NCBI RefSeq assembly: GCF_000963865.1
Contig: NZ_CP011071.1
Location: 744,001 to 808,000, forward strand
Direction: 5' to 3'
DNA: 64,000 bases
Origin: Flagellimonas lutaonensis
Lineage (GTDB): Bacteria; Bacteroidota; Bacteroidia; Flavobacteriales; Flavobacteriaceae
The position numbers and the translations under genes were made by a program. Positions within the stretch are counted from its first letter, which is position 1. Every line of letters starts with the position of its first letter. Of the stretch, positions 39,634 through 54,188 are shown one piece after another. The notes beneath the pieces are model-generated. The model was not told where the DNA came from, searched no databases, and saw only the letters and a list, made by a program, of their open reading frames with translations.

Positions 39634-40008
39634 TTACTTTTTGGGCTGTTTTGCTCCGTACTTCGACCTACGCTGTGTTCTACCCGCAACACCTGCTGTG
39701 TCAAGGGCGCCACGCACGATATGATACCGAACACCTGGCAAATCTTTCACCCTTCCGCCCCTTACCAATACTATCGAGTGCTCTTGCAGATTGTGCCCCT
39801 CACCGGGAATGTAGGCGTTCACCTCTTTGCCATTGGTCAACCTAACCCTAGCCACTTTTCGCATGGCCGAGTTTGGTTTTTTTGGCGTGGTGGTGTACAC
39901 ACGGGTGCACACACCTCTTCGCTGTGGGCAAGAATCCAAAGCAGCCGATTTACTCTTCTTGGTAATTGTGGCCCTTCCTTTTCTTACTAATTGTGAAATT
40001 GTTGGCAT
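39634..40008 (-). CDS. rpsL: 30S ribosomal protein S12
   Basis: 124 residues, first gene of the cluster. [20 protein letters not shown], then the decoding loops [13 protein letters not shown] (Lys43) and [13 protein letters not shown] (Lys88, Pro91). Both lysines that mutate in streptomycin-resistant strains are in the wild-type state. The gene has its own promoter and a short leader that begins with a hairpin. Confidence 0.99.
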
Positions 40009-40025
40009 TAAATTCTCTTGTTAAA

Positions 40026-40052
40026 AATCAAAAAACCCTCTTTTTGAGGGGT
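40026..40052 (-). promoter_or_regulatory. Hairpin plus T-run at the very start of the rpsL leader
   Basis: The stem CCCTC/GAGGG (40050-40046 with 40040-40036) has an AAAAA loop followed by TTTTTTGATTTTT on the minus strand. By the -7 box at 40061-40054, transcription should begin at about 40050-40048, so the 5' arm sits at the predicted RNA end. It could be a terminator for the upstream gene, a 5'-end stabiliser, or both. Confidence 0.6.
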
Positions 40053-40053
40053 G

Positions 40054-40083
40054 CAAATGTAGTGATATTTCACAATAATTCAA
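40054..40083 (-). promoter_or_regulatory. Promoter of the str-S10-spc-alpha cluster
   Basis: Minus strand: TTG (40083-40081), exactly 19 bases, then TACATTTG (40061-40054). This is a perfect match to the Bacteroidota sigma-ABfr consensus TTG-N19-TAnnTTTG. The expected transcript has a leader of about 40 bases before the rpsL ATG. Confidence 0.85.
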
Positions 40084-40262
40084 ATACTTGAAAAATTATT
40101 TTGGTAGAGGCAGGCAAGGCCTGGGCTGAAAAGCCATTTTTTATGCTTTCAATGAATCCGCCGAAACAACCAAGAAAACAATGGACATGCCAGATCGAAA
40201 AACACTGCTTGCAGCGATCAAATCTTGGCTTTTAGGCCACAATGTGTTTAAATGTGGCAACA

Positions 40263-41027
40263 TCAAAGTGCATTTGCATAAGCGACCAACTTTACCATGT
40301 CATCAATATTGGAGAGACTTAATCGGTTTTCTTTGATAAACCGTTTAACCGCCCGCTCATTATTTTTGCCAAAGATTTCAAGTAGCTGGTTTTTTTGGGG
40401 CTTGGTAAAAGTTGGCACGCCATCAGCCAATTTGATGTAGAACTGCTCGTCGTCAACAAATCGGTGCGGAAAAGAACCTTGTAGAAATGTTTTCGCCTGC
40501 TTCGCCTCTTTGAAGATTTTTGCATGCTTAACATAAAATGAATAGAACGGCCCCTCAAAATATCTGAACAAGTATCCTTCTGATAGGGATCCATCCTTAT
40601 TCTGATATTCAAGGTACACGACCCTCTGCCCTTTTATCTCACAAGAGATTGCTGGGCTTTTGTAAAATGCCTGCAGTTGGCGCGAGGCACTCCGTTTGAT
40701 CTCAATCTCATCATTATAGGCATCATATCGCATCGGAAAGTTTTGATACTCCTCGTTCAGGTAATACACCGTTCCATTGTTAAATTCAACATCCAAATAA
40801 ACCGAGCCTTCAATATCATCTAGGCTTATCGAGCGTTCTTGGCCAAGAGTCGAGGTTTTACGCCGCAACTCATTAAACCATTCTATGGCATGGGGATTGT
40901 TGCCCAAAGAACCTTCACCGGTTTTCAGCGCCGCCAACCTTGACCGGGTAAAAACACCCCCCTCACCTTGCGGATAGCAATAAATGACCAAAAGAAAAAC
41001 CAGAAAGAACAACTTGTTTTTAACCAA
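40263..41027 (-). CDS. Secreted protein of unknown function, distant paralogue of the 51918 gene
   Basis: 254 residues. The only usable start in frame is TTG 41027; no ATG or GTG precedes the signal-like stretch KNKLFFLVFLLVIYCYPQG. The middle shares a motif with the protein encoded at 51918-52667: YDAYNDEIEIKR here, YNAYNEEIEIKQ there. The order of features after it is also shared: a glycine-turn strand (KDGSLSEGYLF versus KKGNTLNGYLV), an F-x-E-x-x-Q-A helix, and a C-terminal helix pair with KENRLSLSNIDDM versus KQNNLNIKEEQDL. It is divergent from SusC. Function unknown; the location suggests a role tied to the SusCD locus. Confidence 0.8.
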   Translation of the reverse strand: MVKNKLFFLVFLLVIYCYPQGEGGVFTRSRLAALKTGEGSLGNNPHAIEWFNELRRKTSTLGQERSISLDDIEGSVYLDVEFNNGTVYYLNEEYQNFPMRYDAYNDEIEIKRSASRQLQAFYKSPAISCEIKGQRVVYLEYQNKDGSLSEGYLFRYFEGPFYSFYVKHAKIFKEAKQAKTFLQGSFPHRFVDDEQFYIKLADGVPTFTKPQKNQLLEIFGKNNERAVKRFIKENRLSLSNIDDMVKLVAYANAL

Positions 41028-41312
41028 GACCTTATACCTTATATTATGTACTACTTAAACAGGCATTGTAACAATAACCCAAAACAAGTAAATAACAATA
41101 TTTTGAACAAAACGTACTTCTGAATCGGGATTTTTTCTCTTTTTAAGAAAAAGCAAAAAAAAATGACCTTCTTTTTGGCAAAAACATTGCGCAATTCACA
41201 ATTTTTCCCTCTTTCGAGAACAACCGTCAAATGTGAAATTTTATTAAAATTAGTTTGGATTATTAACATGAAATTATGATTTTAGCGGCTAGCTAATTCA
41301 AATAATTTTAAA
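41028..41312. other. Intergenic region upstream of susC (285 bases)
   Basis: The stretch between the divergent secreted-protein gene and SusC is very AT-rich, with a weak CTTTTT/AAAAAG inverted repeat near 41140. A poor promoter-like arrangement (a TTG near 41255, then TATGATTT) lies before SusC. No gene, strong promoter or terminator is visible. Confidence 0.6.
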
Positions 41313-44300
41313 ATGAGAACAAAACTTAATGGATTGTTAACGCTGTTATTGGCGTTCTTTGTGCACCTTTCTTTTGCGCAAGACAAGACGATTACAGGTA
41401 CGGTGACAGACCAAAACGGCCTGCCGCTCCCTGGGGTGAACATCGTCGTTGAAGGAACGTCAACTGGTACGCAAACAGATTTTGATGGAAACTACTCGAT
41501 TTCCGCCAGTACTGGCCAAACACTATTGTTTACGTACATCGGCCAAAAAGATGAAAGACGCACCGTTGGCGCAGGAAATGTGATCAATGTGCAAATGTCG
41601 GAAGATGCCCAGGCATTGGAAGAAGTGGTCGTAACGGCCCAAGGTATCAAACGTGAAAAGAAGGCCTTAGGATATGCGGTTACCTCTGTGGGTTCCGAGC
41701 AACTGGAGCAACGGGCCGAAGGTGATGTTGCCAGGGTACTCGCTGGTAAGGCCGCCGGTGTACAGATTACCGCTGCCGGTGGTGCCTCGGGTTCTGGTAC
41801 AAACGTGACCATCAGGGGTCTAAGCTCCTTCAGTGGTAGCAACCAGGCGCTCTTTATTGTAGACGGGGTTCCTTTCAGTAATGACACCAACGCGCCCGGA
41901 AACTTTATTTCAGGCAATACAGGGTCGTCCCGTTTCTTGGACCTTGACCCGAACAACATTGCCAGTGTGGAGGTTTTGAAAGGTTTGGCAGCCGCCACCC
42001 TTTACGGTACACAGGGTAAGAACGGGGTCATCTTGATTACCACCAAGGCCGGTGCTGCTGGCAGCGGGGCAAAAAAGACCGAGATTACCGTGAGCCAGTC
42101 TGTCTTTACCAACGAAATGGCTTCTATACCTGATTATCAAGACAAATATGGTAACGGTTTTGACCAGTCTTTCGGATGGTTCTTCAGTAACTGGGGACCA
42201 AGTTTTGACCGTGATGGTGTATCAGGTTGGGGCAACCAATCAGCCATTGATGACAATGGTACGTTGGAGCACCCATATTCTACTACGTCAGTAGCCTCAA
42301 CAAGAGCTGCTTTCCCAGAACTTCAAGGGGCAAGATATCCATGGAGACCATATGATTCTGTAGAGGAATTTTTCCGCCCAGGTGTGGTTACCAATACCTC
42401 TGTGAATGTTGCTGGTTCAACTGCCGATGGGTCGACCAACTATAACTTCAACCTTGGTTACTTGGACGATGAAGGTTTTACACCGGGCAACTCTTTAAAC
42501 AGGTTGAATGTTTCTATGGGTGGCCGTTCACAACTTTCCAACAAGTTTACCATTAGTGGAACCATGAACTATGCAAGAACCGACTATCGTACACCTCCCA
42601 TCGCATCAAGTAGGGGTAACGGTACAGATGGTCTTTCCGTTTATGGCAACGTATTGTTTACACCACGAAGTGTTGACTTGATGGGGCTTCCGTTTGAGAA
42701 CCCAATCGACGGCTCAAGTGTTTACTACCGTAACGGTAATGACATCATCAACCCACGTTGGACCGCCAAAAACGTTACCTACCGACAGTTGACCAACCGT
42801 TTTTACTGGAACGCGCAGTTGAGCTATGAAATCAATGAGAACCTGAACCTCAACTGGAGGTCTGGTCTAGATTTCTACAACGAGCGCAACATTAACGGTT
42901 CAAACAAAGGGGGGGTAGAATTTACCAATGCCATTTTTGGTTTCTATCAAACATATGACAACAACAATACGATCTGGGAGCATTTCCTTTCTTTGAACGG
43001 TAATTACGATCTTTCAGAAAAACTGGGAATGACCTTCACGGTCGGTGCCACTTCAAGACAGGATTTCTTTGATAGACAAGGAGTCAACAGTACCGGCCAG
43101 ATAGTATTTGGCATCAAGCGCCACTTCAACTTTGAAAACCAGACACCCATTCAGTTCTCCCAGAAGCGTAACATTGTCGGTATCTTGGGTCAAGCTACCT
43201 TGGATTACGACAATATGCTATTCTTGAACGTATCTGCCAGAACAGACTGGGTTTCTAACTTGACTTCAGAGAACAATAGCAAAACCTATCCCGGTGTCAG
43301 CTTGTCTTTCTTGCCTACAGCGGCCTTTGACGGTCTTCAGAGCGAGAATGGGATCAATTTCTTGAAATTGAGGGCTAGCTACGGTACTTCGGCTACCTTT
43401 CCTACCGGATATCCTACTGTCAACGTAGTAGAGCAAACCACCCAAAGGTTCGTAGATGCCCAGGGCAACTTGATGACTGCCAACCAAATCGACAACTTTA
43501 GGGCCAATCCTGATTTGAAGCCTGAGCTGTTGGAGGAATATGAATTCGGTATCGAATCGCGTCTTTGGAAAAACAGAATTTCTTTGGATTTCACCTACTT
43601 TAACAGGGTGACCAACGATTTGATCGTTACCGAGCCATTGTCGCCATCAACCGGTTTCTCTTTCACCCAAAGCAACGTTGGTGAAATACAGAACAAAGGA
43701 TTTGAAGCGGATTTGGGAGTTGATATTTTTAAAGGAGAAAACTTCAGTTGGAACTCAAGGGTCAACTTCTTTACCAACAATGAGACCGTTACAGAACAAG
43801 AGCAAGATTTCATTGCCTACGCCGGTTCATTGGCGGTTGGCGGAGGCCTTTTCAGGGGTTCAAACGCCGCTATTGAAGGTGAATCTTTGGGTGCTATTGT
43901 AGGTACGGCGATTGGAAGGGATGAAAACGGTAATTTCTTGGTAAATGACGCAGGAAACTATGTAGTGGTTGAGCAAGACAATGACGGAAATGTACCCGTT
44001 ATTGGAGACGCTATTCCTGATTATACCATGAACTTCATCAATACCTTGCGCTACAAGAACTGGAACCTGAACTTTCAGGTAAACCATGTCAAGGGTGGTG
44101 ACATCCTTTCGAGTACGGTTGCCGTGCTGTTGGGTAGAGGTTTGATTGTTGAGACCCAAGACAGGGAAAACACCTATATTTTGCCAGGTGTTAACCAAAC
44201 AACTGGAGAAGTCAACAACAAGCAGATAAACAACTCGACTTATTTCTTCAGTAACCTGTTGTTCGGTCCAACAGAGACTAGAATCTATGACGCCTCTGTA

Positions 44301-44546
44301 ATCCGCTTACAAGAAGTTTCTTTGGGCTATACCTTCCCATCGAAGTTGCTCGAAAAGACCCCATTTGGTTCTTTGAGCATCACAGCCCAGGGCTTCAACC
44401 TATGGTATGATGCCTACAACACCCCAGATGGTGCAAACTTTGACCCGAATGTTCAGGGTGTGGGTATCGGTAACGGACGAGGATTCGACTTCATCAACGG
44501 GCCTAGTTCCAGAAGGTACGGTGTCAGTGTAAAGGCTTCATTCTAA
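41313..44546 (+). CDS. SusC/RagA-family TonB-linked outer-membrane protein
   Basis: 1077 residues. A signal peptide (1-22, ending LSFAQ) is followed by a CarboxypepD_reg domain at about 25-100 with the classic TGTVTDQNGLPLPGVNIVVE, the TonB-box-like EEVVVTAQG, a plug at about 110-245 (GSGTNVTIRGLSSFSGSNQA, FIVDGVP, then SVEVLKGLAAATLYG) and a 22-strand barrel to the final ASF. It forms the outer-membrane channel, with the SusD protein seven bases on as its lid. No glycosidase, lyase or sulfatase is in the locus, so the cargo may be peptide or another oligomer (inference). Confidence 0.96.
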   Translation: MRTKLNGLLTLLLAFFVHLSFAQDKTITGTVTDQNGLPLPGVNIVVEGTSTGTQTDFDGNYSISASTGQTLLFTYIGQKDERRTVGAGNVINVQMSEDAQALEEVVVTAQGIKREKKALGYAVTSVGSEQLEQRAEGDVARVLAGKAAGVQITAAGGASGSGTNVTIRGLSSFSGSNQALFIVDGVPFSNDTNAPGNFISGNTGSSRFLDLDPNNIASVEVLKGLAAATLYGTQGKNGVILITTKAGAAGSGAKKTEITVSQSVFTNEMASIPDYQDKYGNGFDQSFGWFFSNWGPSFDRDGVSGWGNQSAIDDNGTLEHPYSTTSVASTRAAFPELQGARYPWRPYDSVEEFFRPGVVTNTSVNVAGSTADGSTNYNFNLGYLDDEGFTPGNSLNRLNVSMGGRSQLSNKFTISGTMNYARTDYRTPPIASSRGNGTDGLSVYGNVLFTPRSVDLMGLPFENPIDGSSVYYRNGNDIINPRWTAKNVTYRQLTNRFYWNAQLSYEINENLNLNWRSGLDFYNERNINGSNKGGVEFTNAIFGFYQTYDNNNTIWEHFLSLNGNYDLSEKLGMTFTVGATSRQDFFDRQGVNSTGQIVFGIKRHFNFENQTPIQFSQKRNIVGILGQATLDYDNMLFLNVSARTDWVSNLTSENNSKTYPGVSLSFLPTAAFDGLQSENGINFLKLRASYGTSATFPTGYPTVNVVEQTTQRFVDAQGNLMTANQIDNFRANPDLKPELLEEYEFGIESRLWKNRISLDFTYFNRVTNDLIVTEPLSPSTGFSFTQSNVGEIQNKGFEADLGVDIFKGENFSWNSRVNFFTNNETVTEQEQDFIAYAGSLAVGGGLFRGSNAAIEGESLGAIVGTAIGRDENGNFLVNDAGNYVVVEQDNDGNVPVIGDAIPDYTMNFINTLRYKNWNLNFQVNHVKGGDILSSTVAVLLGRGLIVETQDRENTYILPGVNQTTGEVNNKQINNSTYFFSNLLFGPTETRIYDASVIRLQEVSLGYTFPSKLLEKTPFGSLSITAQGFNLWYDAYNTPDGANFDPNVQGVGIGNGRGFDFINGPSSRRYGVSVKASF

Positions 44547-44571
44547 TAAAAAATTGTTAATGGATAATATC

Positions 44572-46242
44572 ATGAAAAACATTTTTAAATACATAACAGT
44601 TGTTTTTATCGCAGGTGGGCTTTTTACCGCCTGTGAGACAACGGACTTGGACTTAAGGGTAAGTCCGAACGACCTAGCGGCAGACCAGGCAGACCCTAAC
44701 CTGCTGCTCAACTCGATCCAACTGGCATACGGCACTAATATGCAAACTATCAGTGACCGTGGTGCCGAATTGACACGGATCGATTACATGTTTGGTAGAA
44801 ACTACTTCAACAACTATCCCGGTAACACCTTTGACGGTATTTGGTCAAGAACCTACAGTAGTGGGGGTAATGGTGTAGGGGATGGTGTCAGTGTAGGTAT
44901 TTCTACCAACGTGGCTGCCCTTGAGGATATCAACGCAAACAGTGAAGTGGATTATTCATTTCATGTTGGCGTGGGCAAGACCCTTCAGGCACACATGCTG
45001 TTCCTTTTAGTGGATTATATCGGAACGGCCGCTTGGAGCCAGGCATTGAACCCTTCTGAATTTCCCGCTCCCACTTTGGACAGTGGAGAGGAAATCTACA
45101 ACGTGGCATTTGGCCTTTTGGATGAGGCCGAGAGCCTTTTGGCCTCGAATCCTCCAACACAAGGTGCCCAGGATATTTTCTATGAAGGGGATGCCTCTAA
45201 ATGGGTAAAATTGATCAACACTTTGAGGTTGCGCGCATACAAGAACACTGGAAACACTTCAGCGTTCAACAACATTATCGCAGGCGGCAACTTTATTTCT
45301 AGCAATGAGGATGATTTCCAATTGCAATATGGTACAAGTGAATTACAACCTGATTCACGTCACCCAGACTATGCTGCTGATTATACGCCTTCTGGAGCCA
45401 ACATTTACCAGTCAAACTGGTTGATGGAGACCATGCTAGACTACGGTGACCCAAGAATCCGTTACTACTTCTATCGTCAGGTGGATGCCACACCAGGTGC
45501 TGATGCTCCTGCAGATGAGGAAACCTTGGCCTGCTCATTGGTAGTACCTCCACAGCACTACCAAGATGGTGGTTTCACTTATTGTAGTGTGCCCAATGGT
45601 TATTGGGGTCGTTCTCACGGTAACGACGAAGGTACACCTCCTGACAACTTCCTGAGAGCTGCAGTTGGTGTTTACCCAGCAGGTGGGCGTTTCGATGACA
45701 ATAGTTTTGATGTAGTAGGTTTAGGTCTTGGTGGCGGTGGTGCCGGTATTGAGCCCATCATCTTGGCTTCTTATGTTGATTTCTGGAGAGGTGAGATGGC
45801 TGCCAACGACACCGAGCGTGCCAACTTCTTGAGGGCGGGTCTTGAAAAGCATATCGCAAAAGTCCAATCGTTCGGATCTTTGGATAGTTCTGCTGATCTA
45901 TCATTTGCACCTACAGCTGCAGAGGTTACGGCTTATATCGATGGTATTGTGAGCGACTTCAATGCTGCTACTGGTGATGACAAGGAGAACATCTTTGCGG
46001 AGCAATACTTCATCACCCTATACGGCGGTGCTACTGAAGCGTACAACTATTACAGAAAAACGGGATATCCTACTACCTTGCTTCCAAACTGGGAGCCAGA
46101 TCCAGGACCTTTCCCACGTACGTTCTTGTTGCCACAGAACGAGGTCATTACGAATCCAAACTTGACCCAGAGGTCAGATTTGACAACACAGGTTTTTTGG
46201 GACACCAACCCTCCAAGTCCCACCTTCCCTCCAGCAAACTAA
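44572..46242 (+). CDS. SusD/RagB-family nutrient-binding lipoprotein
   Basis: 556 residues from ATG 44572 (an ATG at 44560 is the alternative). Lipobox FTAC, the TPR-rich SusD fold with DASKWVKLINTLRLRAYKNT in its usual place, and a SusD-like C-terminal ending in FLLPQNEVITNPNL. It acts as the extracellular lid of the preceding SusC channel. A Gly-rich loop (GLGLGGGGAGIEP) near residue 390 is presumably in a surface loop. It is followed ten bases on by the first of two lipoproteins, so all four genes likely form one transcript up to 47318. Confidence 0.95.
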   Translation: MKNIFKYITVVFIAGGLFTACETTDLDLRVSPNDLAADQADPNLLLNSIQLAYGTNMQTISDRGAELTRIDYMFGRNYFNNYPGNTFDGIWSRTYSSGGNGVGDGVSVGISTNVAALEDINANSEVDYSFHVGVGKTLQAHMLFLLVDYIGTAAWSQALNPSEFPAPTLDSGEEIYNVAFGLLDEAESLLASNPPTQGAQDIFYEGDASKWVKLINTLRLRAYKNTGNTSAFNNIIAGGNFISSNEDDFQLQYGTSELQPDSRHPDYAADYTPSGANIYQSNWLMETMLDYGDPRIRYYFYRQVDATPGADAPADEETLACSLVVPPQHYQDGGFTYCSVPNGYWGRSHGNDEGTPPDNFLRAAVGVYPAGGRFDDNSFDVVGLGLGGGGAGIEPIILASYVDFWRGEMAANDTERANFLRAGLEKHIAKVQSFGSLDSSADLSFAPTAAEVTAYIDGIVSDFNAATGDDKENIFAEQYFITLYGGATEAYNYYRKTGYPTTLLPNWEPDPGPFPRTFLLPQNEVITNPNLTQRSDLTTQVFWDTNPPSPTFPPAN

Positions 46243-46255
46243 AAAATGATTAATG

Positions 46256-47221
46256 ATGAAAAAGTTTGCTAAATATTTATTAGGAACCACATTGCTTGGA
46301 GCACTTTTGGTGTTCTCAGGATGTGAAGATGGGGATAAGGTCTTCGATGAAATACAAGCCAATGTTCAGAGAGGAGCCGTTTTAAGAACTATAAACCTCA
46401 TTTCAAACGAACTGCCAATCGGGCAAGCCGATGCAGGATTTGAAGTGGAACTGGAAGTACAAGACCAAGAAAACGGAAACCTTGTACAGACAGTTGAGGT
46501 ATATGTTGGTTTCAGGGACAATACTGAGGAAGTAGGACCTGGAACGAATGTAGAGGAATCACTATTCGACACTGTTGATAGCTCAACCTTTACTATAGGG
46601 GAGTTTGGTCTTCCGAGATTTAGTTACGCCATTACCCTGGCAGAGATGCTTTCTTTTGTGGGACGGAGTGAGTCTGATATCACGGGTGGTGATCAATTTG
46701 AAATCCGTTTCGAATTGGTTTTGACAGATGGACGTCGCTTTTCGTTCGCGGACAATTCAGGTACGCTAACAGGTTCGTTCTTTAGTTCGCCATTTTTGTA
46801 TACCCCTACGGTGGTTTGTCCGATTGGAGAAGACCAATTTGTGGGAGACTATGTAGTCAACCAAGTGGTACCCGGAATATTCGCTTCCAACACTTGGGGG
46901 GATGGCACGACGGTAACGCTCATGATTGGGGAAACCTCCACACAAAGAGTTTTCGAAGCCGTATATCTTCCAGATTTCGGTATTGGAAATGGACCTAGAG
47001 CTTTTGCTTTTGATCTGGTATGTGGTTCTGTCAATCCTCTCCCTGGTCAGGCATCAGGTCTTCAATGTAGTGCAGGTATCACGTTAGGCCCTCCAGTTGA
47101 AGCTGCGCCAGGAACATATGACCCTGCAGATGACAGCGTCTTCAATATTGTGCTCAGAGACGATGAAAGCGATGATTGTGGCGGTGGTGTTGATGCAGAG
47201 GTTCGATTGACTAAACTTTAA
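46256..47221 (+). CDS. Surface lipoprotein A of the SusCD locus
   Basis: 321 residues (ATG 46256; the ATG one codon earlier is the alternative). Lipobox FSGC (Cys22). The N-terminal module, about residues 22-190 (GDKVFDEIQANVQRGAVLR to SGTLTGSFFSSPFLY), is nearly the same as in the next gene. The C-terminal 130 residues (VCPIGEDQFVGDYVVNQ onward) are unrelated to that of the neighbour and look like a single beta-barrel or jelly-roll domain. Position after SusD suggests a SusE/F-like accessory ligand-binding lipoprotein. A terminator follows at 47286. Confidence 0.85.
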   Translation: MKKFAKYLLGTTLLGALLVFSGCEDGDKVFDEIQANVQRGAVLRTINLISNELPIGQADAGFEVELEVQDQENGNLVQTVEVYVGFRDNTEEVGPGTNVEESLFDTVDSSTFTIGEFGLPRFSYAITLAEMLSFVGRSESDITGGDQFEIRFELVLTDGRRFSFADNSGTLTGSFFSSPFLYTPTVVCPIGEDQFVGDYVVNQVVPGIFASNTWGDGTTVTLMIGETSTQRVFEAVYLPDFGIGNGPRAFAFDLVCGSVNPLPGQASGLQCSAGITLGPPVEAAPGTYDPADDSVFNIVLRDDESDDCGGGVDAEVRLTKL

Positions 47222-47285
47222 TAAGCAGTGATGAAAGAACCTTTTGATATCATTCAAAGAGTTTCTAGTCATAGCTAAGTTAACG

Positions 47286-47318
47286 ATAAAACCACCTGCT
47301 ATGTCGGGTGGTTTTATT
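47286..47318 (+). terminator. Intrinsic terminator after lipoprotein A
   Basis: The stem AAAACCACC/GGTGGTTTT (47288-47296 with 47307-47315) with a ten-base loop is followed by ATT. The run of T is mostly within the stem, so partial read-through into the next gene is likely. Confidence 0.7.
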
Positions 47319-47372
47319 GCAACTGACCTAAGTGTCTCAAAATGGCTAATAACAAAAAAGAAAAATTATCTT

Positions 47373-48302
47373 ATGAAAATCTTTAGTAAAATACTCTCAT
47401 TTATGGTGTTGTTCTTCTTCATCTCTTCTTGTGAAGAAGGAGACAAGGTCTTTGATGAGATTCAAGCCAACGTACAGCGGGGTGCGGTCTTAAGAACCAT
47501 AAATGTTATATCCAACGAGATTCCTATCGGCAACAATGATTCAAATTTCAGTGTAGAAGTTGAAATTCAGGATCAAGAAAATGGTAAACTCGTGCAAGCA
47601 GTTGAAGTATATATCGGTTTTAGGGACAATACCGTTGCAGACGGTGAAACAGATTTGGATACCGAAGAGGTTCTAGTTGAAATCCTCGACCCTTCAACCT
47701 TTTCAATAGGTGAATTTGGTTTGCCCAGAACAACTTATACCATCACCCTACCAGAAATGGTTGCCGCACTTCCCATCTCTAACGACGACGTTGATGGATC
47801 TGACCAGTTTACCATTCGTTTTGAGCTGGTATTAGTGGATGGAAGAAGGTATTCTTTTGCCGACAACTCCGGCACATTGACAGGTTCGTTCTTTAGTTCA
47901 CCATTTCTCTACACAGCCACTGTAGTATGCCCACCCAAACCACCTACACCAGGGGTTTGGACTGTGGAAATGCAAGATGCATTTGGCGATGGATGGCAAC
48001 CAACCACTGCTGATGGTGGCGGCCCAGGCCTTGTTGTTACATTAAGTGATGGCACCGTTTATGAGATTGGCCTTTGCACGCCCTATGAAGATCCGGGGTA
48101 TGATTGTACAGATGGGGCCAGTTCTGGTACTACCACATTTACTGTTCCTGCCGGATTAACGGAAGCTGCTGATTTTAATTTCAGGGGTGATTTTTGGGGT
48201 GAGATATCCTTTCAAATCATCACACCAAATGGAAATACGGTTGCAGACATTCCTGCAGGTACCGAGGCTGGCAGCATTGCCATTGATTACTGTAAAGACT
48301 AA
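47373..48302 (+). CDS. Surface lipoprotein B, paralogue with a different C-terminal domain
   Basis: 309 residues from ATG 47373; an open frame upstream of this ATG crosses the terminator and is not used. Lipobox ISSC. Residues about 20-190 repeat the module of lipoprotein A (EGDKVFDEIQANVQRGAVLR; SGTLTGSFFSSPFLY). The tail is a distinct domain starting PGVWTVEMQDAFGDGWQ. Its W-x-V-x-M-x-D-x-x-G-D-G-W pattern is one I associate with secreted Bacteroidota proteins, and the acidic and Gly-rich loop could bind a metal. It has its own terminator. Tandem duplication followed by domain exchange is the simplest origin. Confidence 0.85.
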   Translation: MKIFSKILSFMVLFFFISSCEEGDKVFDEIQANVQRGAVLRTINVISNEIPIGNNDSNFSVEVEIQDQENGKLVQAVEVYIGFRDNTVADGETDLDTEEVLVEILDPSTFSIGEFGLPRTTYTITLPEMVAALPISNDDVDGSDQFTIRFELVLVDGRRYSFADNSGTLTGSFFSSPFLYTATVVCPPKPPTPGVWTVEMQDAFGDGWQPTTADGGGPGLVVTLSDGTVYEIGLCTPYEDPGYDCTDGASSGTTTFTVPAGLTEAADFNFRGDFWGEISFQIITPNGNTVADIPAGTEAGSIAIDYCKD

Positions 48303-48331
48303 TTGAAGATTGGATTATAATTTTAATAGAG

Positions 48332-48363
48332 AAAAAGCCACCTTTCATAGGTGGCTTTTTTTA
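48332..48363 (+). terminator. Intrinsic terminator after lipoprotein B
   Basis: The stem AAAAAGCCACC/GGTGGCTTTTT with a seven-base loop is followed by further T residues, 30 bases after the stop codon. Confidence 0.9.
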
Positions 48364-48484
48364 TTCACCCTGTTAAAAAACTTCATTATACATCAATAAA
48401 ATCAAGTATTCTTGTTAATCACAAAAGTTCGTAATAATTTGTGGGGCATTTTCGGCCACATACTAATTTTAATGCTTATAGAAC

Positions 48485-51400
48485 ATGTTTCGGAATAAAT
48501 ATCTTTTTTGCCTATTGTCGGTCTTTGCAGTCATTGCCTGTAAACAAAAGACAGCGGAGGTAGTGGACGAAGAAAAAAAAGACCGGATTGTTGAAAAGAA
48601 ACAAATCTTCAAAAAATTGGAAGCCAATAGTACTGGCGTTAATTTTGAAAACAACATCACCGAAAACCTTGAAACCCTTGAAAATCTTTTCAATTTTGAC
48701 TATTTCTACAACGGTGCAGGCGTTGGTGTTGAAGATATCAACAACGATGGTCTTTTGGATATCTTTTTTTGTGGCAACCAAGTACCGAACAGATTGTACT
48801 TGAACAAGGGTAATTTACAATTTGAAGACATAACAGAAACGGCCGGCATCAACCAAGGAAAGATTTGGTCCAATGGAGTGGCCTTTGTCGACATTAATAA
48901 CGATGGGTGGATGGATATCTATGTCTCACAAGGTGGTCCCAATAATAGGCCAAATCGAAAGAACCTGCTATTTATCAATCAAAAAAACAATACTTTTCTA
49001 GAAAACGCAGATGAGTATGGACTAGCTGATATGGGTATCAGTACGCAATCGGCATTTTTCGACTATGACCGGGATGGTGACCTCGATTGCATCGTAATGA
49101 ACGAAAATGAGTATTATGGGGTTGACCCTATTAATCTGTATCGGATGGTCGAGGGTAACCTAGAGGCACAATATTTCAATTCTTCCCATTTCTATAGAAA
49201 CGACAACGGTCGTTTTGTCCATGTGACCAAAGAGGTCGGCATACAACGGCCTATTTTTGGATTGGGCCTTGCCATAAGTGACATAAACAACGATGGTTGG
49301 CTAGACTTTTACATTGCCAGTGATTACTACATTCCTGATGCCTTGTTCATCAACGAAAAGGGTGTTTTTGTCGATAAGATCAAAGAGTACACCAACCAGA
49401 TTTCCTTTTACGGAATGGGTATTGACATTGCCGATGTCAACAACGATTCCAAGCAAGATATTTTCGTGCTCGATATGGCTTCAAGCGACCATAAGCGCTC
49501 AAAGACACTAATGGCATCTATGAGCACCGACCGTTTTGATTACCTGGTAAATAAGGCCAACTTCCATTACCAATATATGTACAATTCATTTCAGCTAAAT
49601 ATTGGTAACAATAAGTTCAATAATATCGCCCAAATGACCAAAACGGCCAATACCGATTGGAGTTGGTCAGTGCTAATGACAGATTTTGATCTTGACCAAG
49701 ACAAGGATATTTATGTTACCAACGGATATAGGCGCTATGCCCTCGACAATGATGTTCAGAACAAGGTTTTTGAGGCCCGCATGAAATATGGTAAGAATGT
49801 ACCTCTGGAAATAAAAAAACAACTTTATTATGACATGCCCTCTGAAAAATTGCAGAACATCCTGTATGAAAACCAAGGTAATCTAAAATTTGTAGACCGT
49901 GCTTCAGAATGGGGTCTGGAGGATTTTACTTTTAGCAACGGGGCTGCACAGGCAGACCTTGACAATGATGGTGATTACGATTTAGTGGTCAACAACATCG
50001 ATGATAAAGCTCTGGTATATCAAAATGTTTCGGTCGAAAGAAACGAGGGCAACTACTTAAAGATAAAACTGAAGGGAGTAAATTCTGAGCCCTTTGCAAA
50101 GGTTTCCATCAAATATGGTGGTAAAGAACAGTACATTGAAAGTCGTAGGATCAAAGGCTACCGGTCATCACACGACAACTCAATCATTTTCGGGCTTGGA
50201 AACACAGAAAAAGTTGATACGCTGAAGGTTGAATGGAACAATGGCAGCGCCGAAATACGGTATGATATCCCTAAAAATTCCGTCATTACCTTAGACATTG
50301 TAAATGCGAAACCATTGAAGCCTGAGGCAGACAAAGTTATACCGTTCTTTAAGGAAAGTGCGGTGCTTGGCCAACCCATAGTTCACAAAGAAAATCCTTA
50401 CGATGATTTTGAAGAAGAAATTCTTTTGCCCTACAAACAATCAACACTTGGTCCATTTATGAGTAAGGGCGATTTTAATGGCGATGGCCTAGAAGATGTT
50501 TTTATCGGCGGCGCGTCAGGCCAAGCGGGCCAATTACTTAAAAACATAGGCAGTGGTTTTGTGGCCGTGGCTTCAAAAGCATTGGATGATGACAAGGGCC
50601 ATGAGGATATGGAGTCGGTATTCTTTGACTTCGACAATGATGGAGACCTAGATCTCTTCGTGGTAAGTGGCGGCAACGAATTCGATGAAAATTCCTCTTT
50701 CTTTACCGACCGGCTTTACATAAATGATGGCAAAGGCAACTTTACAAAGGCAAAGCAACCTGAGCTTGAAAAATATCCGAAAAATGGCAAAACAGTAACC
50801 CCCATAGATTTCGATAATGACGGAGACCTTGATTTGCTTGTTGGAAATCGAGTCATCCCAAGAAATTACCCGAAATTCCAACCCTCTACAATTTTCGAGA
50901 ACAAAAAAGGCCGCTTGGTCGATGTAACCGAAAAAGTTGCTCCTGAATTAGCCAATTTTGGCATTATCAATGACTTTGTGGCCACCGATTTCGATAATGA
51001 CGGGCAACAAGATTTTATTGCCGTGGGTGAATGGACAGGAATAGGCCTTTTCAAAAACCAAAATGGAAGCTTTCAGAACGTGGCAAAGGAAAAAGGCCTT
51101 GGCGAAGAGCGTGGCTGGTGGTTCTCCATTGCACAGACCGATGTGAACAATGATGGTCTCAAAGATTACGTGGTCGGCAATGTAGGCCTAAACATCAAAT
51201 TCAAGGCCAACAAGAAAAAACCGTTCAAGGTGTTTGCAGACGATTTTGATGGAAATGGCACAAATGATATTGTTCTGAGTAAAGAATATAATGGCGCATA
51301 CGTGCCCGTAAGAGGCCGTGAGTGTTCTTCACAACAAATGCCCTTTATCAAAGAAAAATTCGAAACCTACAACGAGTTTGCCAATGCAACCTTGGTAGAC

Positions 51401-51817
51401 ATTTATGGTGAAGACCTGTCGAACGCGTTTCAAAGTGAAGCCACAGAGTTTAATTCAATTGTTTTGGTGAACAGGGGTAGTGGCGATTTTGAAAAAATAC
51501 TACTGCCGGTTGAAGCGCAAATGTTCCCTATTCTTTCAATTGATATTTATGATTTGAACGGTGACGGTTTTGAAGATTGCGTAATTGCCGGCAACCTATA
51601 TGAAACAGAAGTCGAGACACCCCGTCTGGATGCGTTTTCAGGCTTGGCCCTGCTATCAAACCAAGAAAATGGCTATCAGGCGCTCACATATGAAGAAACA
51701 GGGCTTTACCTAGATGGCAACACAAAAGATGCCCTTTTTGTAGATTTGAACGGCACAAAGCATCTGTTGGTATCTAAAAACAATGATAGAGCGCAATCTT
51801 TTGTCTACCAACCCTAG
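48485..51817 (+). CDS. ASPIC/UnbV double-propeller (VCBS/FG-GAP) lipoprotein
   Basis: 1110 residues, lipobox VIAC (Cys19). It carries about 14 Ca-binding-type loops of the form D-x-N/D-x-D-G-x-x-D, such as DINNDGLLDI, DYDRDGDLDC, DFNGDGLEDV, DFDNDGDLDL and DLNGDGFEDC. They are arranged in two blocks (about 75-505 and 655-1030) that should each form an integrin-alpha-like beta-propeller. Between them at about 520-608 lies an ASPIC/UnbV domain (ending NGSAEIRYDIPKNSVITLD). Such proteins often sit near SusCD pairs in Flavobacteriaceae and are thought to bind surface ligands. No enzyme motif is visible. It is transcribed separately, after the lipoprotein B terminator. Confidence 0.92.
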   Translation: MFRNKYLFCLLSVFAVIACKQKTAEVVDEEKKDRIVEKKQIFKKLEANSTGVNFENNITENLETLENLFNFDYFYNGAGVGVEDINNDGLLDIFFCGNQVPNRLYLNKGNLQFEDITETAGINQGKIWSNGVAFVDINNDGWMDIYVSQGGPNNRPNRKNLLFINQKNNTFLENADEYGLADMGISTQSAFFDYDRDGDLDCIVMNENEYYGVDPINLYRMVEGNLEAQYFNSSHFYRNDNGRFVHVTKEVGIQRPIFGLGLAISDINNDGWLDFYIASDYYIPDALFINEKGVFVDKIKEYTNQISFYGMGIDIADVNNDSKQDIFVLDMASSDHKRSKTLMASMSTDRFDYLVNKANFHYQYMYNSFQLNIGNNKFNNIAQMTKTANTDWSWSVLMTDFDLDQDKDIYVTNGYRRYALDNDVQNKVFEARMKYGKNVPLEIKKQLYYDMPSEKLQNILYENQGNLKFVDRASEWGLEDFTFSNGAAQADLDNDGDYDLVVNNIDDKALVYQNVSVERNEGNYLKIKLKGVNSEPFAKVSIKYGGKEQYIESRRIKGYRSSHDNSIIFGLGNTEKVDTLKVEWNNGSAEIRYDIPKNSVITLDIVNAKPLKPEADKVIPFFKESAVLGQPIVHKENPYDDFEEEILLPYKQSTLGPFMSKGDFNGDGLEDVFIGGASGQAGQLLKNIGSGFVAVASKALDDDKGHEDMESVFFDFDNDGDLDLFVVSGGNEFDENSSFFTDRLYINDGKGNFTKAKQPELEKYPKNGKTVTPIDFDNDGDLDLLVGNRVIPRNYPKFQPSTIFENKKGRLVDVTEKVAPELANFGIINDFVATDFDNDGQQDFIAVGEWTGIGLFKNQNGSFQNVAKEKGLGEERGWWFSIAQTDVNNDGLKDYVVGNVGLNIKFKANKKKPFKVFADDFDGNGTNDIVLSKEYNGAYVPVRGRECSSQQMPFIKEKFETYNEFANATLVDIYGEDLSNAFQSEATEFNSIVLVNRGSGDFEKILLPVEAQMFPILSIDIYDLNGDGFEDCVIAGNLYETEVETPRLDAFSGLALLSNQENGYQALTYEETGLYLDGNTKDALFVDLNGTKHLLVSKNNDRAQSFVYQP

Positions 51818-51917
51818 ATTGAAGGTCGTCGGCCATATGGGTTTTTAAGCTAATTATAACACATAATTTCACGATTTATTTAGGCAAATGGCTATTTTCG
51901 TGAAAATTTAAATTCTT

Positions 51918-52667
51918 ATGAAAAAAACACATTTCCTGTTAGCACTACTATCTGTTTCAGCCCTTGTCGTAAATGGACAAACATCGGGACAAGTTGCCTC
52001 TTACACGGCAACAGGGGCAGATGGAGGCTTTACCGATGCCGCCTTGCAATACGTTACCGGTTCAATTTCTGGCGCAAAAGAAAAACTCTCCTATGAAAAT
52101 AGAAGTGATATACAAGGTAGCCCATATACCTCCAATGCTTTTCAGTACACAACTTTATTCTATGACGGTGAGCCGGTGCAAAATATTTATTACCGATACA
52201 ACGCCTACAACGAGGAAATAGAGATAAAGCAAAAAAACCTTGAAAACGAGCCTATCAGGGCTTTGGGAAAAGACAAGAAGATTTCAATCTTGGTAAATGG
52301 CCAACCTTTGAGTTTCAAGACATTTATTGACAAAAAGGGCAATACCTTAAATGGTTACCTGGTGACCTTGGTAGAAGGCGAAGAATATACGTTGTACAAA
52401 CGTATAAACGTTAAGTTTACAGAAGGTCAAAAAGCCCAAAACTCTTTTGTCAAAGCAATTCCCGCTAAATTTTCAAAGTTTACGGAATATTACGTCGAGG
52501 CTAAAGGCATAAACCGAATAGACGAGATACAGCTCAAGAATAAAAAGCTATTGAAGCTTCTGCCCCCTGACAAAAAAGAAAATTTGGCTGGATATTTAAA
52601 GCAAAACAATCTTAATATTAAAGAAGAGCAAGATCTTAGACAGGTGTTTATGTACTTGAATAGCTAA
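51918..52667 (+). CDS. Secreted protein of unknown function, distant paralogue of the 40263 gene
   Basis: 249 residues with a Sec signal peptide (1-20, ending VVNGQ). It shares the central motif YNAYNEEIEIKQ, the strand KKGNTLNGYLVTLVEGEEY, the helix FTEGQKAQNSFVKAIPAKF and a C-terminal two-helix end with the protein at 40263-41027. It contains no lipobox and no membrane helix, so it is probably periplasmic or secreted. It closes the SusCD/ASPIC locus and has its own terminator. Function unknown. Confidence 0.85.
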   Translation: MKKTHFLLALLSVSALVVNGQTSGQVASYTATGADGGFTDAALQYVTGSISGAKEKLSYENRSDIQGSPYTSNAFQYTTLFYDGEPVQNIYYRYNAYNEEIEIKQKNLENEPIRALGKDKKISILVNGQPLSFKTFIDKKGNTLNGYLVTLVEGEEYTLYKRINVKFTEGQKAQNSFVKAIPAKFSKFTEYYVEAKGINRIDEIQLKNKKLLKLLPPDKKENLAGYLKQNNLNIKEEQDLRQVFMYLNS

Positions 52668-52687
52668 ATTTTGCTTAATAACATTCT

Positions 52688-52717
52688 AAAAACCCACTTC
52701 TTCAAGTGGGTTTTTTT
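52688..52717 (+). terminator. Intrinsic terminator after the 51918 gene
   Basis: The stem ACCCACTT/AAGTGGGT (52692-52699 with 52704-52711) with a four-base loop is followed by a T run. Confidence 0.9.
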
Positions 52718-52731
52718 GTAATTTGATTACA

Positions 52732-53469
52732 ATGGTAAATTCTGAACAGATATATGGTATACATGCCGTAATGGAAGCCATAAAGGCCGACGAACCCATC
52801 AACAAGGTCTACCTGCAGAAAGGCCTGAAAGGTGGCCTGTTCAAGAGCCTTGAAACCTTGGCTCGAAAAAAACGGTTGATGGTCTCGTATGTGCCCATCG
52901 AAAGGCTCAACAAACTCACTAAAAACAACCATCAGGGTGCCGTGGCCCTGATATCACCCGTTGCCTTCCAAAATTTTGAAGATACTGTTGAAAAAATCCT
53001 GCAAAAACAAGAACTGCCATTCTTTCTTCTCTTGGATGGTATTTCCGATGTTCGAAACTTCGGGGCCATCATCAGAACCGCCGAATGTTGTGGAGTAGAC
53101 GCCATTGTGGTGCCCAAAAACAACTCTGCCCCTATTAATGCCGATGCGGTAAAGACCTCAGCCGGCGCCGCCTTCAAAATTCCGATCACCAAGGTCGACC
53201 ATTTAAAAGATGCCATATTCTACCTGCAATCATCCGGAGTGGAAATCGTTGCTGCCACCGAAAAGGCTGATACCTTTGTCTACGATGTTCCACTGAATAG
53301 GGCCTGTGCGGTCATTATGGGTTCAGAGGGTAGCGGAATATCACCCTCGCTGTTGAAGTTGGCGGATCACACTGCCAAATTGCCCATGTTGGGCGAAATA
53401 GAGTCGCTGAATGTATCGGTGGCCTGTGGGGTGTTTCTTTATGAGGTTGTGCGGCAGCGAAAGGGCTAG
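52732..53469 (+). CDS. rlmB: 23S rRNA (guanosine-2251-2'-O)-methyltransferase
   Basis: 245 residues from ATG 52732; a TTG three codons earlier is less likely. SpoU/TrmH family: N-terminal L30e-like substrate-binding domain (about 1-75, YGIHAVMEAIKADEPINKVY), then the knotted SAM domain with motif 1 DGISDVRNFGAIIRTAECCG, motif 2 MGSEGSGIS and motif 3 LNVSVACGVFLYE. It methylates G2251 in the P loop of 23S rRNA by family inference. It overlaps the stop of the convergent rhomboid gene by four bases. Confidence 0.95.
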   Translation: MVNSEQIYGIHAVMEAIKADEPINKVYLQKGLKGGLFKSLETLARKKRLMVSYVPIERLNKLTKNNHQGAVALISPVAFQNFEDTVEKILQKQELPFFLLLDGISDVRNFGAIIRTAECCGVDAIVVPKNNSAPINADAVKTSAGAAFKIPITKVDHLKDAIFYLQSSGVEIVAATEKADTFVYDVPLNRACAVIMGSEGSGISPSLLKLADHTAKLPMLGEIESLNVSVACGVFLYEVVRQRKG

Positions 53470-54188
53470 TCGTCCCTCTTTTTATACTGATAGTTGATTT
53501 TTGCCCCATCCCCTTCTACATCGGGTTTTCTTTCTATGAAATTTCCGTGTTCATCAAAATGCTTCATAAACTCATCTTCCTCCTCGTTATAATCTTCACG
53601 CTCCCATACATACCTCTTTTCAACGGGAACCTTTGTTCTTACCACCAAGGCCAAGAACAGCCCTGTTAAAAATCCTGAAAGATGTCCTTCCCAAGAAATT
53701 CCATCCTTTATCGAAAAAATATACCAAAGCATTCCTCCATAAATAAAGACAACCGTCAAAGACAGGGCAATCAATCGGTAATACTTGGCAAAGATTCCTT
53801 TAAAAAAAATAAAGCTTGCCAGTACGTAGATGATTCCGCTTGCCCCAATATGGTATGATGGCCGTCCGATGAGCCAAGTGAGCAACCCTGAAAGCAGCCC
53901 CCCGACCAACAATACCCAAACTGCCTCTCTCCTATAAAAATAGAACAGAAACGCCGTCAGCAATATCAGGGGCAACGTATTGTTGTATAGATGTTCTACC
54001 GAGCCATGGATGAACGGACTTAAAAGAACGCCCCGCAACCCCTTTAAGGTTCTCGGATATACCCCGTAATCGTTAAAATTGACCCCAAACCGAACCTCGA
54101 ACCAGAACACCGACCAAATGGCCAGGGCCGCCAGAAGGGGTGCCAACAACACGGCATTTGAAAACTTAAATTGACTTGGTGTGGCCAT
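53466..54188 (-). CDS. Rhomboid-family intramembrane serine protease
   Basis: 240 residues from ATG 54188, with six membrane helices. The catalytic dyad is visible: Ser in HIGASGIIYVLASF (GxSG in TM4) and His in WEGHLSGFLTGLF (TM6). The HGSVEHLYNNTLPL segment carries the oxyanion-side His/Asn. The C-terminal 50 residues are a soluble, highly charged tail (VEKRYVWEREDYNEEEDEFM). It cleaves membrane-anchored substrates within the inner membrane; the substrates are not predictable. Divergent from rarA, 80 bases away. Confidence 0.93.
   Translation of the reverse strand: MATPSQFKFSNAVLLAPLLAALAIWSVFWFEVRFGVNFNDYGVYPRTLKGLRGVLLSPFIHGSVEHLYNNTLPLILLTAFLFYFYRREAVWVLLVGGLLSGLLTWLIGRPSYHIGASGIIYVLASFIFFKGIFAKYYRLIALSLTVVFIYGGMLWYIFSIKDGISWEGHLSGFLTGLFLALVVRTKVPVEKRYVWEREDYNEEEDEFMKHFDEHGNFIERKPDVEGDGAKINYQYKKRDD

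Follow-up and report, generated by a model that had tools for sequence, protein, structure and literature searches.

The analysed window, a stretch of 64,000 nucleotides (nt) of the Flagellimonas lutaonensis genome (contig NZ_CP011071.1, positions 744,001 to 808,000), contains a SusC/SusD locus that occupies exactly the interval from rpsL to rlmB, a conserved position here called the slot, and the 5' region of its susC gene matches a family of antisense RNAs; the initial annotation of this stretch had overlooked both. By its membership of the rpsL-rlmB slot the locus is a Flavobacteriaceae 'str-slot' SusCD, a type that looks like the default importer of the whole family. The gene content, the conserved position, the SusC type, the covariation of the RNA and its complementarity to the slot susC start, with the specificity of that complementarity, were all computed from the genomes. 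We regard it as moderately probable that a covarying RNA of ~135 nt, with a ~50-nt antisense of the str-slot susC start, represents a new class of trans-acting mRNA leader that switches the default importer off. The function that we would favour, with a similar and limited degree of confidence, is that a default, probably oligopeptide importer is shut at translation by the leader RNAs of alternative SusC operons.

A predicted antisense RNA element and the start of slot susC

Alignment of the region upstream of slot susC, made with the window and 53 named slot loci plus 17 further loci, identifies a putative promoter and short leader in which the block TTTGG-ATTATTAAC...TATGATTTT..GC...TAGCTAATTCAAATAA, also written TTTGGATTATTAAC...TATGATTTT-GC...TAGCTAATTCAAATAA...ATG, is conserved across genera. 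The named loci are the best 80 of 567 candidates from a scan with a SusD alignment, and counts of them, like the sense and antisense counts given here, contain a few duplicate genomes (among them G029 = L174, G015 = L155 and G011 = L161). With one mismatch allowed, the CTAATTCAAATAA motif occurs in 51 of the 54 loci formed by the window and the named ones and in 15 of the 17 further loci (66/71 overall). The promoter consensus of Bacteroidota, TTTG-N17-23-TAnnTTTG, has five matches in the window, no excess over the 3.1 +/- 1.9 of shuffled sequence, and none of them precedes susC. The exact reverse complement of the CTAATTCAAATAA motif is found before other susC genes, and among 124 SusC open reading frames (ORFs; some genomes counted twice) 89 have the sense motif, six the antisense motif and none both. 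The minus strand of the antisense target in the window matches loop positions 48-99 of the RNA model R1 (cmsearch, 35.9 bits). The features concerned are the following:

41253..41312, plus strand: promoter-like block and short 5' untranslated region (UTR) of slot susC, conserved across slot loci
41291..41338, plus strand: antisense target, that is, 5' UTR, start codon and first ~8 codons of slot susC
G000:C1:721358-721485, minus strand: own-genome element 1, outside the window (744001-808000)
G000:C1:852785-852922, minus strand: own-genome element 2, outside the window (744001-808000)

The antisense copies sit within an element of ~135 nt with the long basal stem GCAATTG-AAAGGT-AGGGCGG...CCGCCC-GCCTTT-CTCAATTGC. 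A covariance model built from six sequences and run with strict filters against 199 genomes, one per genus, recovered 24 full-length copies in 17 of these genomes, and in 20 of the 24 a susC start follows at a distance of 25-57 nt. To these copies L081, L084, L179 and L112 were added, giving 28 distinct sequences in which 91.7% of cells pair and two-sided changes affect 25 of the 33 pairs. Two-sided cells number 84, compared with 25.8 in shuffles (0 of 500 reaching that number), and the signal is lost when the partner is slid; the alignment used (A7) was fitted to the structure of the model, which favours that structure, but the slid controls remain far from it. The covariation of the stem is strong, and its frequent G-U pairs place the RNA, in all likelihood, on the susC-sense strand. 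When cmscan was run with all families of Rfam 15 (E up to 0.1) on 20 of the 28 element loci, it returned only tRNAs and no Flavo-1, and no Rfam family reaches its gathering threshold in window positions 40000-53500. In seven aligned sequences no T-run was seen by eye between element and susC. The element could be no more than a decayed and non-functional remnant of an inverted copy of the slot susC start, and its extension into susC coding sequence would fit a duplicate, yet this reading is very improbable given the compensatory stem changes across 17 genera, the constant place before susC (20/24) and a loop type that partly tracks the type of slot.

The complementarity is mostly to the slot start and not to the gene that follows the element. 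Many loops read, in reverse complement, CTAATTCAAATAA...ATGAAATCAAAGTTTAGTGG-like, which corresponds to the slot leader followed by codons of the MKTKFSG/MRTKLNG type, and they reproduce the slot start, not the start of the gene that they precede (often MKVK...). The mean duplex energy to 15 slot starts, which include the doubtful start of L071, is stronger than that to the preceded susC start in 18 of 20 elements. In the own genome, slot susC was ranked among 62 start regions (57 mechanical ATG ORFs of the window and five other SusCs) and comes first for both elements, with -62.8 vs -45.2 kcal/mol for the next region in one case and -60.8 vs -39.5 kcal/mol in the other. Loop and slot types also tend to agree: two elements with the window-type loop AAGTTTTGTT fit window-type slots better, and eight of the ten elements with a AAACTTTG loop fit AAGTTTAGTGG-type slots better. 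The element of genome G027 reaches -54.8 with its own slot and -39.7 to -41.8 with window-type slots, the corresponding values for G032 being -46.6 and -30.9 to -35.2. In silico, the element shows complementarity to the site at which translation of a susC mRNA begins. For 13 more genomes with elements, slots were not found in 20 stretches taken from some of them.

Several observations weigh against a specific switch of this kind. Elements were found in few genera, although 17 of 199 is probably an undercount because of the strict filters, and four of the 24 (L209, L211, L216 and L223) are not located before a susC gene. The elements L220 and L212 fit the preceded susC start equally well or better than the slot starts, and L213 and L221 fit window-type slots better despite their AAACTTTG loops. 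The comparison of elements with their own slots covers six genomes, three of which belong to one genus and have near-identical slots; within it, the -54.8 of the G027 element is barely better than the mean of -52.7 for foreign slots of the same type, and the ARW1Y1 element pairs weakly with its own slot (-36.7). In the metagenome-assembled genome (MAG) DT_32 (G117:C12:191994-192124, L104/L217), the SusC on the rlmB side, with 86% identity to that of the window, carries the antisense leader in place of the sense one, which means that the roles can be exchanged; no rpsL was found near this SusC, and neither rpsL nor SusC in the next 40 kb. Conservation of the slot leader may moreover reflect promoter or translation signals, because the leader is more widely conserved (66/71) than the elements. 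Finally, it is by inference that the leader is transcribed together with the susC behind it, that it pairs with its target in the cell and acts as a repressor, that the cargo is peptide and that the slot locus is identical with the Flavobacterium johnsoniae genes Fjoh_0403-0405.

Other copies were noted as well. The own genome contains a second SusCD of the same type at ~847-853 kb (L080), which has an antisense element and neighbours porV, a gene with an FGE-sulfatase domain and Mur-ligase-like genes. Near-copies of the antisense 17-mer, each with one mismatch, occur at G000:C1:472592 (L198) and G000:C1:1277206 (L199) beside the hairpins of other genes, where they possibly represent a 3'-UTR small RNA (sRNA) or chance matches. 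The element L223 lies ~0.65 kb from that of L204.

A putative switch between importers and related RNA systems

In the proposed mechanism, the slot would encode a default TonB-dependent importer consisting of a SusC barrel, a SusD lid and one or two surface lipoproteins, to which an ASPIC/FG-GAP lipoprotein and the secreted protein F2 would often be added, all encoded beside the ribosomal str operon. The slot susC mRNA would start with a short conserved leader that is almost wholly antisense target, while alternative susC operons would begin with the ~135-nt RNA, whose basal stem is predicted to present an A/U-rich loop antisense to the slot start. Upon transcription of an alternative operon, its leader, either as part of the mRNA or as a processed piece, would pair with the slot susC mRNA. 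This pairing would block ribosome entry and lower the default importer, and outer-membrane capacity would shift to the alternative importer. A switch is the simplest function to propose, since the default leader is the antisense target and the presumed leaders of the alternatives carry the antisense.

The action could also run in reverse or both ways, with abundant slot susC mRNA pairing with the alternative leader and repressing or stabilising that mRNA. Complementarity is symmetrical, the element is located 25-57 nt ahead of the alternative susC start, presumably within the 5' UTR of that gene, and the presumed F. johnsoniae counterpart of the slot is highly abundant (PMC12611786), so that its mRNA could act as a sponge. 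However, pairing covers the slot start codon, where ribosomes would be blocked, and in the leader the complementary loop lies about 60-110 nt upstream of the alternative gene. We consider reverse or two-way action possible but unlikely, and repression of the default importer by the alternative leader remains the reading preferred here.

The closest described logic found is that of the FopS sRNAs of Bacteroides, which block susC starts. FopS and GibS, both noncoding, repress the translation of susC mRNAs by pairing around their start (PMC11697453), and they share with the present element, here in silico, complementarity to the susC translation start. In contrast, FopS RNAs measure ~65-70 nt and have a 5' seed in common, whereas here the ~50-nt antisense is held in a ~135-nt structure of a presumed susC leader. 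FopS is also a separate short sRNA with its own ends; 20 of the 24 elements run on to a susC start, from which a separate piece may be processed. Antisense control of genes of a polysaccharide utilization locus (PUL) is likewise represented by antisense sRNAs at Bacteroides PULs (Cao et al. 2016, as cited in PMC9723704); these are cis-encoded, whereas the target here is a distant susC. The Flavo-1 motif is another computationally defined structured RNA that is widespread in Flavobacteriaceae (PMC9723704), but cmscan gave no match to it on the 20 element loci. None of the titles and abstract openings listed, a set without subscription papers and preprints, describes such a leader. If the proposal is true, the outer-membrane nutrient choice of Flavobacteriaceae would be controlled in part by RNA pairing between competing susC mRNAs, and an RNA family that has no Rfam match may set the choice between importers.

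The rpsL-rlmB slot in Flavobacteriaceae

All ORFs listed by the initial annotation are present, and the locus and its surroundings comprise the following features:

39634..40008, minus strand: rpsL, left anchor of the slot
40036..40050, minus strand: terminator-like hairpin after F1, from a pattern scan
40263..41027, minus strand: F1, distant paralogue of F2 in divergent position
41313..44546, plus strand: slot SusC, first gene of the unit; BT2264-like; TIGR04056 566 bits
44569..46242 (ORF from 44554), plus strand: SusD-like lipoprotein; PF12771 (SusD-like_2); relatives at the same slot
46253..47221, plus strand: lipoprotein A (LpA); two predicted beta domains; no Pfam family above cut-off
47373..48302, plus strand: lipoprotein B (LpB); ORF 47244-48302, likely start 47373; lipobox visible in the translation
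48485..51817, plus strand: FG-GAP/ASPIC-UnbV lipoprotein; 11 FG-GAP_3 stretches and UnbV_ASPIC in Pfam
51918..52667, plus strand: F2, secreted protein; YNAYNEEIEIK family; final gene of the slot
52688..52715, plus strand: likely terminator 3' of F2; 12-pair stem and T tail, from a pattern scan
52723..53469, plus strand: rlmB, right anchor of the slot, followed by a rhomboid protease and rarA

The genes from SusC through F2 share the plus strand, F1 runs in the opposite direction, and a hairpin separates F2 from rlmB; terminator patterns are not in excess in the region (15 vs 14.1 in shuffles), the one after F2 having the longest stem. The three genes at the right end are taken to be rlmB, a rhomboid protease and rarA from their protein sequences, and homologues are present in relatives. 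The two lipoproteins had been called paralogous, and LpA and LpB are indeed 67% identical over A residues 2-191 (~190) and differ in their C-terminal parts. Pfam and NCBIfam models detect above cut-off no carbohydrate-active enzyme (CAZyme), lyase, sulfatase, other enzyme or regulator in the seven genes, and LpA, LpB, F1 and F2 have no model above cut-off at all. This agrees with the initial description of a SusC/SusD/lipoprotein/ASPIC locus free of enzymes and regulators, a set that is kept together in many genera, often with ASPIC.

The conserved place of the locus was established by locating rpsL in 60 genomes (the own genome and 59 relatives) and comparing, for part of them, the stretch upstream of rpsL. 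Of 36 relatives from the family, 32 have a usable stretch and 28 both anchors, and in 27 of these 28 SusC lies between rpsL and rlmB; the sole exception, G025, has a TamA-like gene and no SusC at the slot. Not counted are G001 and G006, in which rpsL was not found, G018 and G019, where the contig ends, and the four stretches L055, L060, L066 and L071, which contain no rlmB; the last two of these have SusC beside rpsL. In 25 of the 27 genomes at least one slot SusC is matched better by a profile of slot SusCs than by one made from four other SusCs of the own genome, a grouping that is partly circular because 15 of the 25 helped to build the slot profile. Outside the family, a SusC-SusD pair was not found beside rpsL in any of the 11 genomes compared (of 23; blastp with window proteins only), and the stretches L075 and L098 gave weak SusC-like matches of 53 and 47 bits, that of L098 being 2.6 kb from rpsL. 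The system had been put forward as undescribed, which these counts do not bear out: it is a family-wide SusCD of the rpsL-rlmB slot. In the stretches seen, it is nowhere a fragment of a larger PUL, which the initial annotation had named as one of two outcomes that would refute its view.

Of the 80 named loci, 46 have both anchors, 19 have one and 15 have none. An LpA/LpB-type lipoprotein is present in all 65 anchored loci, F2 in 51, ASPIC in 37 and the TamA-like gene in nine. The codon adaptation of slot susC (0.718) barely exceeds that of the five other SusCs (0.674-0.707; 0.648-0.716 for 14 background genes of the window), and codon bias is uninformative as a sign of high expression of the default importer, which also weighs against the reading preferred here. 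In L047, L049, L056 and L073 two or three SusCs, some of another type, lie within the slot. Five loci from Altibacter, Dokdonia and a related MAG (L155, L157, L160, L163 and L164) have an ASPIC gene beyond rarA, in the opposite direction and a few kb from the slot. Two public MAG contigs titled Nocardioides and Cytophagaceae (L140 and L157) carry the Flavobacteriaceae slot and are probably misassigned. A SusC-SusD of the same type, with 63-69% identity, is found in six Saprospiraceae MAGs (L130, L135, L137, L148, L149 and L150), five of which have the ASPIC protein, and no rpsL or rlmB was seen in the fetched loci; transfer between orders is possible, and ASPIC looks like a partner of the slot-type SusCD.

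Many slots open with a ~565-residue TamA-like protein encoded between rpsL and SusC, for which the POTRA domain exceeds the Pfam cut-off in two of three examples examined and falls just below it in the third. The gene adjoins rpsL in all 19 family genomes that carry it, and in six genomes of other families with a relative it is not beside rpsL. Fjoh_0402 is the F. johnsoniae homologue of TamA (PMC12045153), and Fjoh_0403-0405 is SusCDE, one of the two most abundant outer-membrane components, of unknown function (PMC12611786). As the order of TamA-like gene, SusC, SusD and extra lipoprotein matches that of many slot genomes, the slot locus likely corresponds to Fjoh_0403-0405, an orthology that gene order alone suggests; the F. 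johnsoniae locus differs in this respect from the window genome, in which no TamA-like match was found. If so, an abundant SusCDE of unknown function gains a testable cargo (peptides) and a position. A further likeness, by description, is to the SusCD THC0290_2100/2101 of Flavobacterium psychrophilum, which is described with homologues in the whole family and proposed to import oligopeptides (PMC9723704). A SusC-like subunit of the β-barrel assembly machinery (BAM) complex, initially suspected, was rejected as an identity, BamG being FadL-like (PMC12611786).

Probable cargo and the F1/F2 proteins

Peptides, either oligopeptides or similar peptide-rich material, are likely the cargo of the slot importer, as judged by analogy with related systems. 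The best PDB match of the window SusC is BT2264 of Bacteroides thetaiotaomicron (312 bits vs 163 for the next), and a profile of 16 distant slot SusCs gives 854 bits for BT2264 vs 397 for the next, while one control SusC of the own genome prefers other structures (526 bits vs 119 for BT2264). In addition to the SusC type, the BT2261-2264 complex (5fq6/5fq8) may share with the slot a BT2262-like domain, the C-terminal one of LpA: residues 190-321 of its AlphaFold2 model (predicted local distance difference test, pLDDT, 86) align with BT2262 5fq3 at Z 8.3 (root-mean-square deviation 3.6, 115 aligned) and with 5fq8_G at Z 8.0. BT2261 and BT2262 are, going by the PDB titles, two extra lipoproteins beside SusC/SusD, as LpA and LpB are at the slot. 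BT2263-64 and RagAB are cited as oligopeptide importers, and a single SusCD pair is counted in F. psychrophilum (PMC10132118); a SusCD of that species rises together with collagenase, and oligopeptide import has been proposed for it (PMC9723704). Three points weigh against this assignment. BT2263 ranks 14-15 of 27 among solved SusDs for the slot SusD (95 vs 146 bits), a Z of ~8 is near the common-fold level, at which unrelated folds score equally high, and BT2263-64 has also been called a SusC/D of unknown function with a peptide in its structure (PMC11992087). Because its SusD is not closest to BT2263, the slot pair is called BT2264-like and not a member of the BT2261-2264 type, from which it further differs by the added ASPIC and F proteins and by the rpsL-rlmB position.

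Import of glycans by a PUL remnant whose enzymes are encoded elsewhere has some appeal in that the solved relatives of the slot SusD include proteins of chitin and glucan loci, BT2263 not being the best. We nevertheless consider it rather unlikely. The seven genes lack the CAZyme, lyase or sulfatase of a PUL, SusC is nearest to BT2264, and the protease-rich F. psychrophilum retains a single SusCD pair (PMC10132118), the tie of which to the slot is presumed.

F1 and F2 had been described as distant paralogues, and their homology is confirmed (30% identity, E 9e-19 over residues 62-248); no further copy of their family was found in the own genome (E <= 0.01). The proposal that both are dedicated helpers was not borne out. 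F2 lies directly before rlmB in 39 of the 46 doubly anchored named loci, whereas a left-side F1 occurs in two of the 65 anchored loci; in the genus of the window, F1 is present in the window and in G003 and absent from G002. The suggested check on co-occurrence of the family with SusC did not favour the proposal: of 34 F matches in 60 genomes, 11 are at the slot, 22 away from it and one on a contig too short to tell, and blastp found no SusC near the non-slot F genes in any of 10 fetched loci. The family is thus mostly found away from SusCD loci, an outcome that the initial annotation had itself named as refuting its view. That view, in which an independent system for uptake or adhesion has an unknown cargo and F1 and F2 serve as its dedicated secreted helpers, draws on an enzyme-free locus, on the homology and flanking position of the two proteins, and on the regular presence of F2 at the slot in the Muricauda-Maribacter group, but is improbable with F1 rare at the slot, F genes mostly elsewhere with no SusC nearby, and slot SusCD common without F. 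F2 looks rather like a clade-specific recruit and is not proof of a separate system. Its AlphaFold2 model (pLDDT 88.9) has no PDB match in Foldseek at E <= 0.001 and a best Z of 4.0 with VIA-align, which does not show a new fold, and no Pfam family is common to more than one of 33 F members (E <= 0.1). F and the TamA-like gene occur together in one of the 65 anchored loci (L115). In Maribacter halichondriae, four F1-like genes, one of them short, are arrayed between rpsL and SusC (L124:2570-5919).

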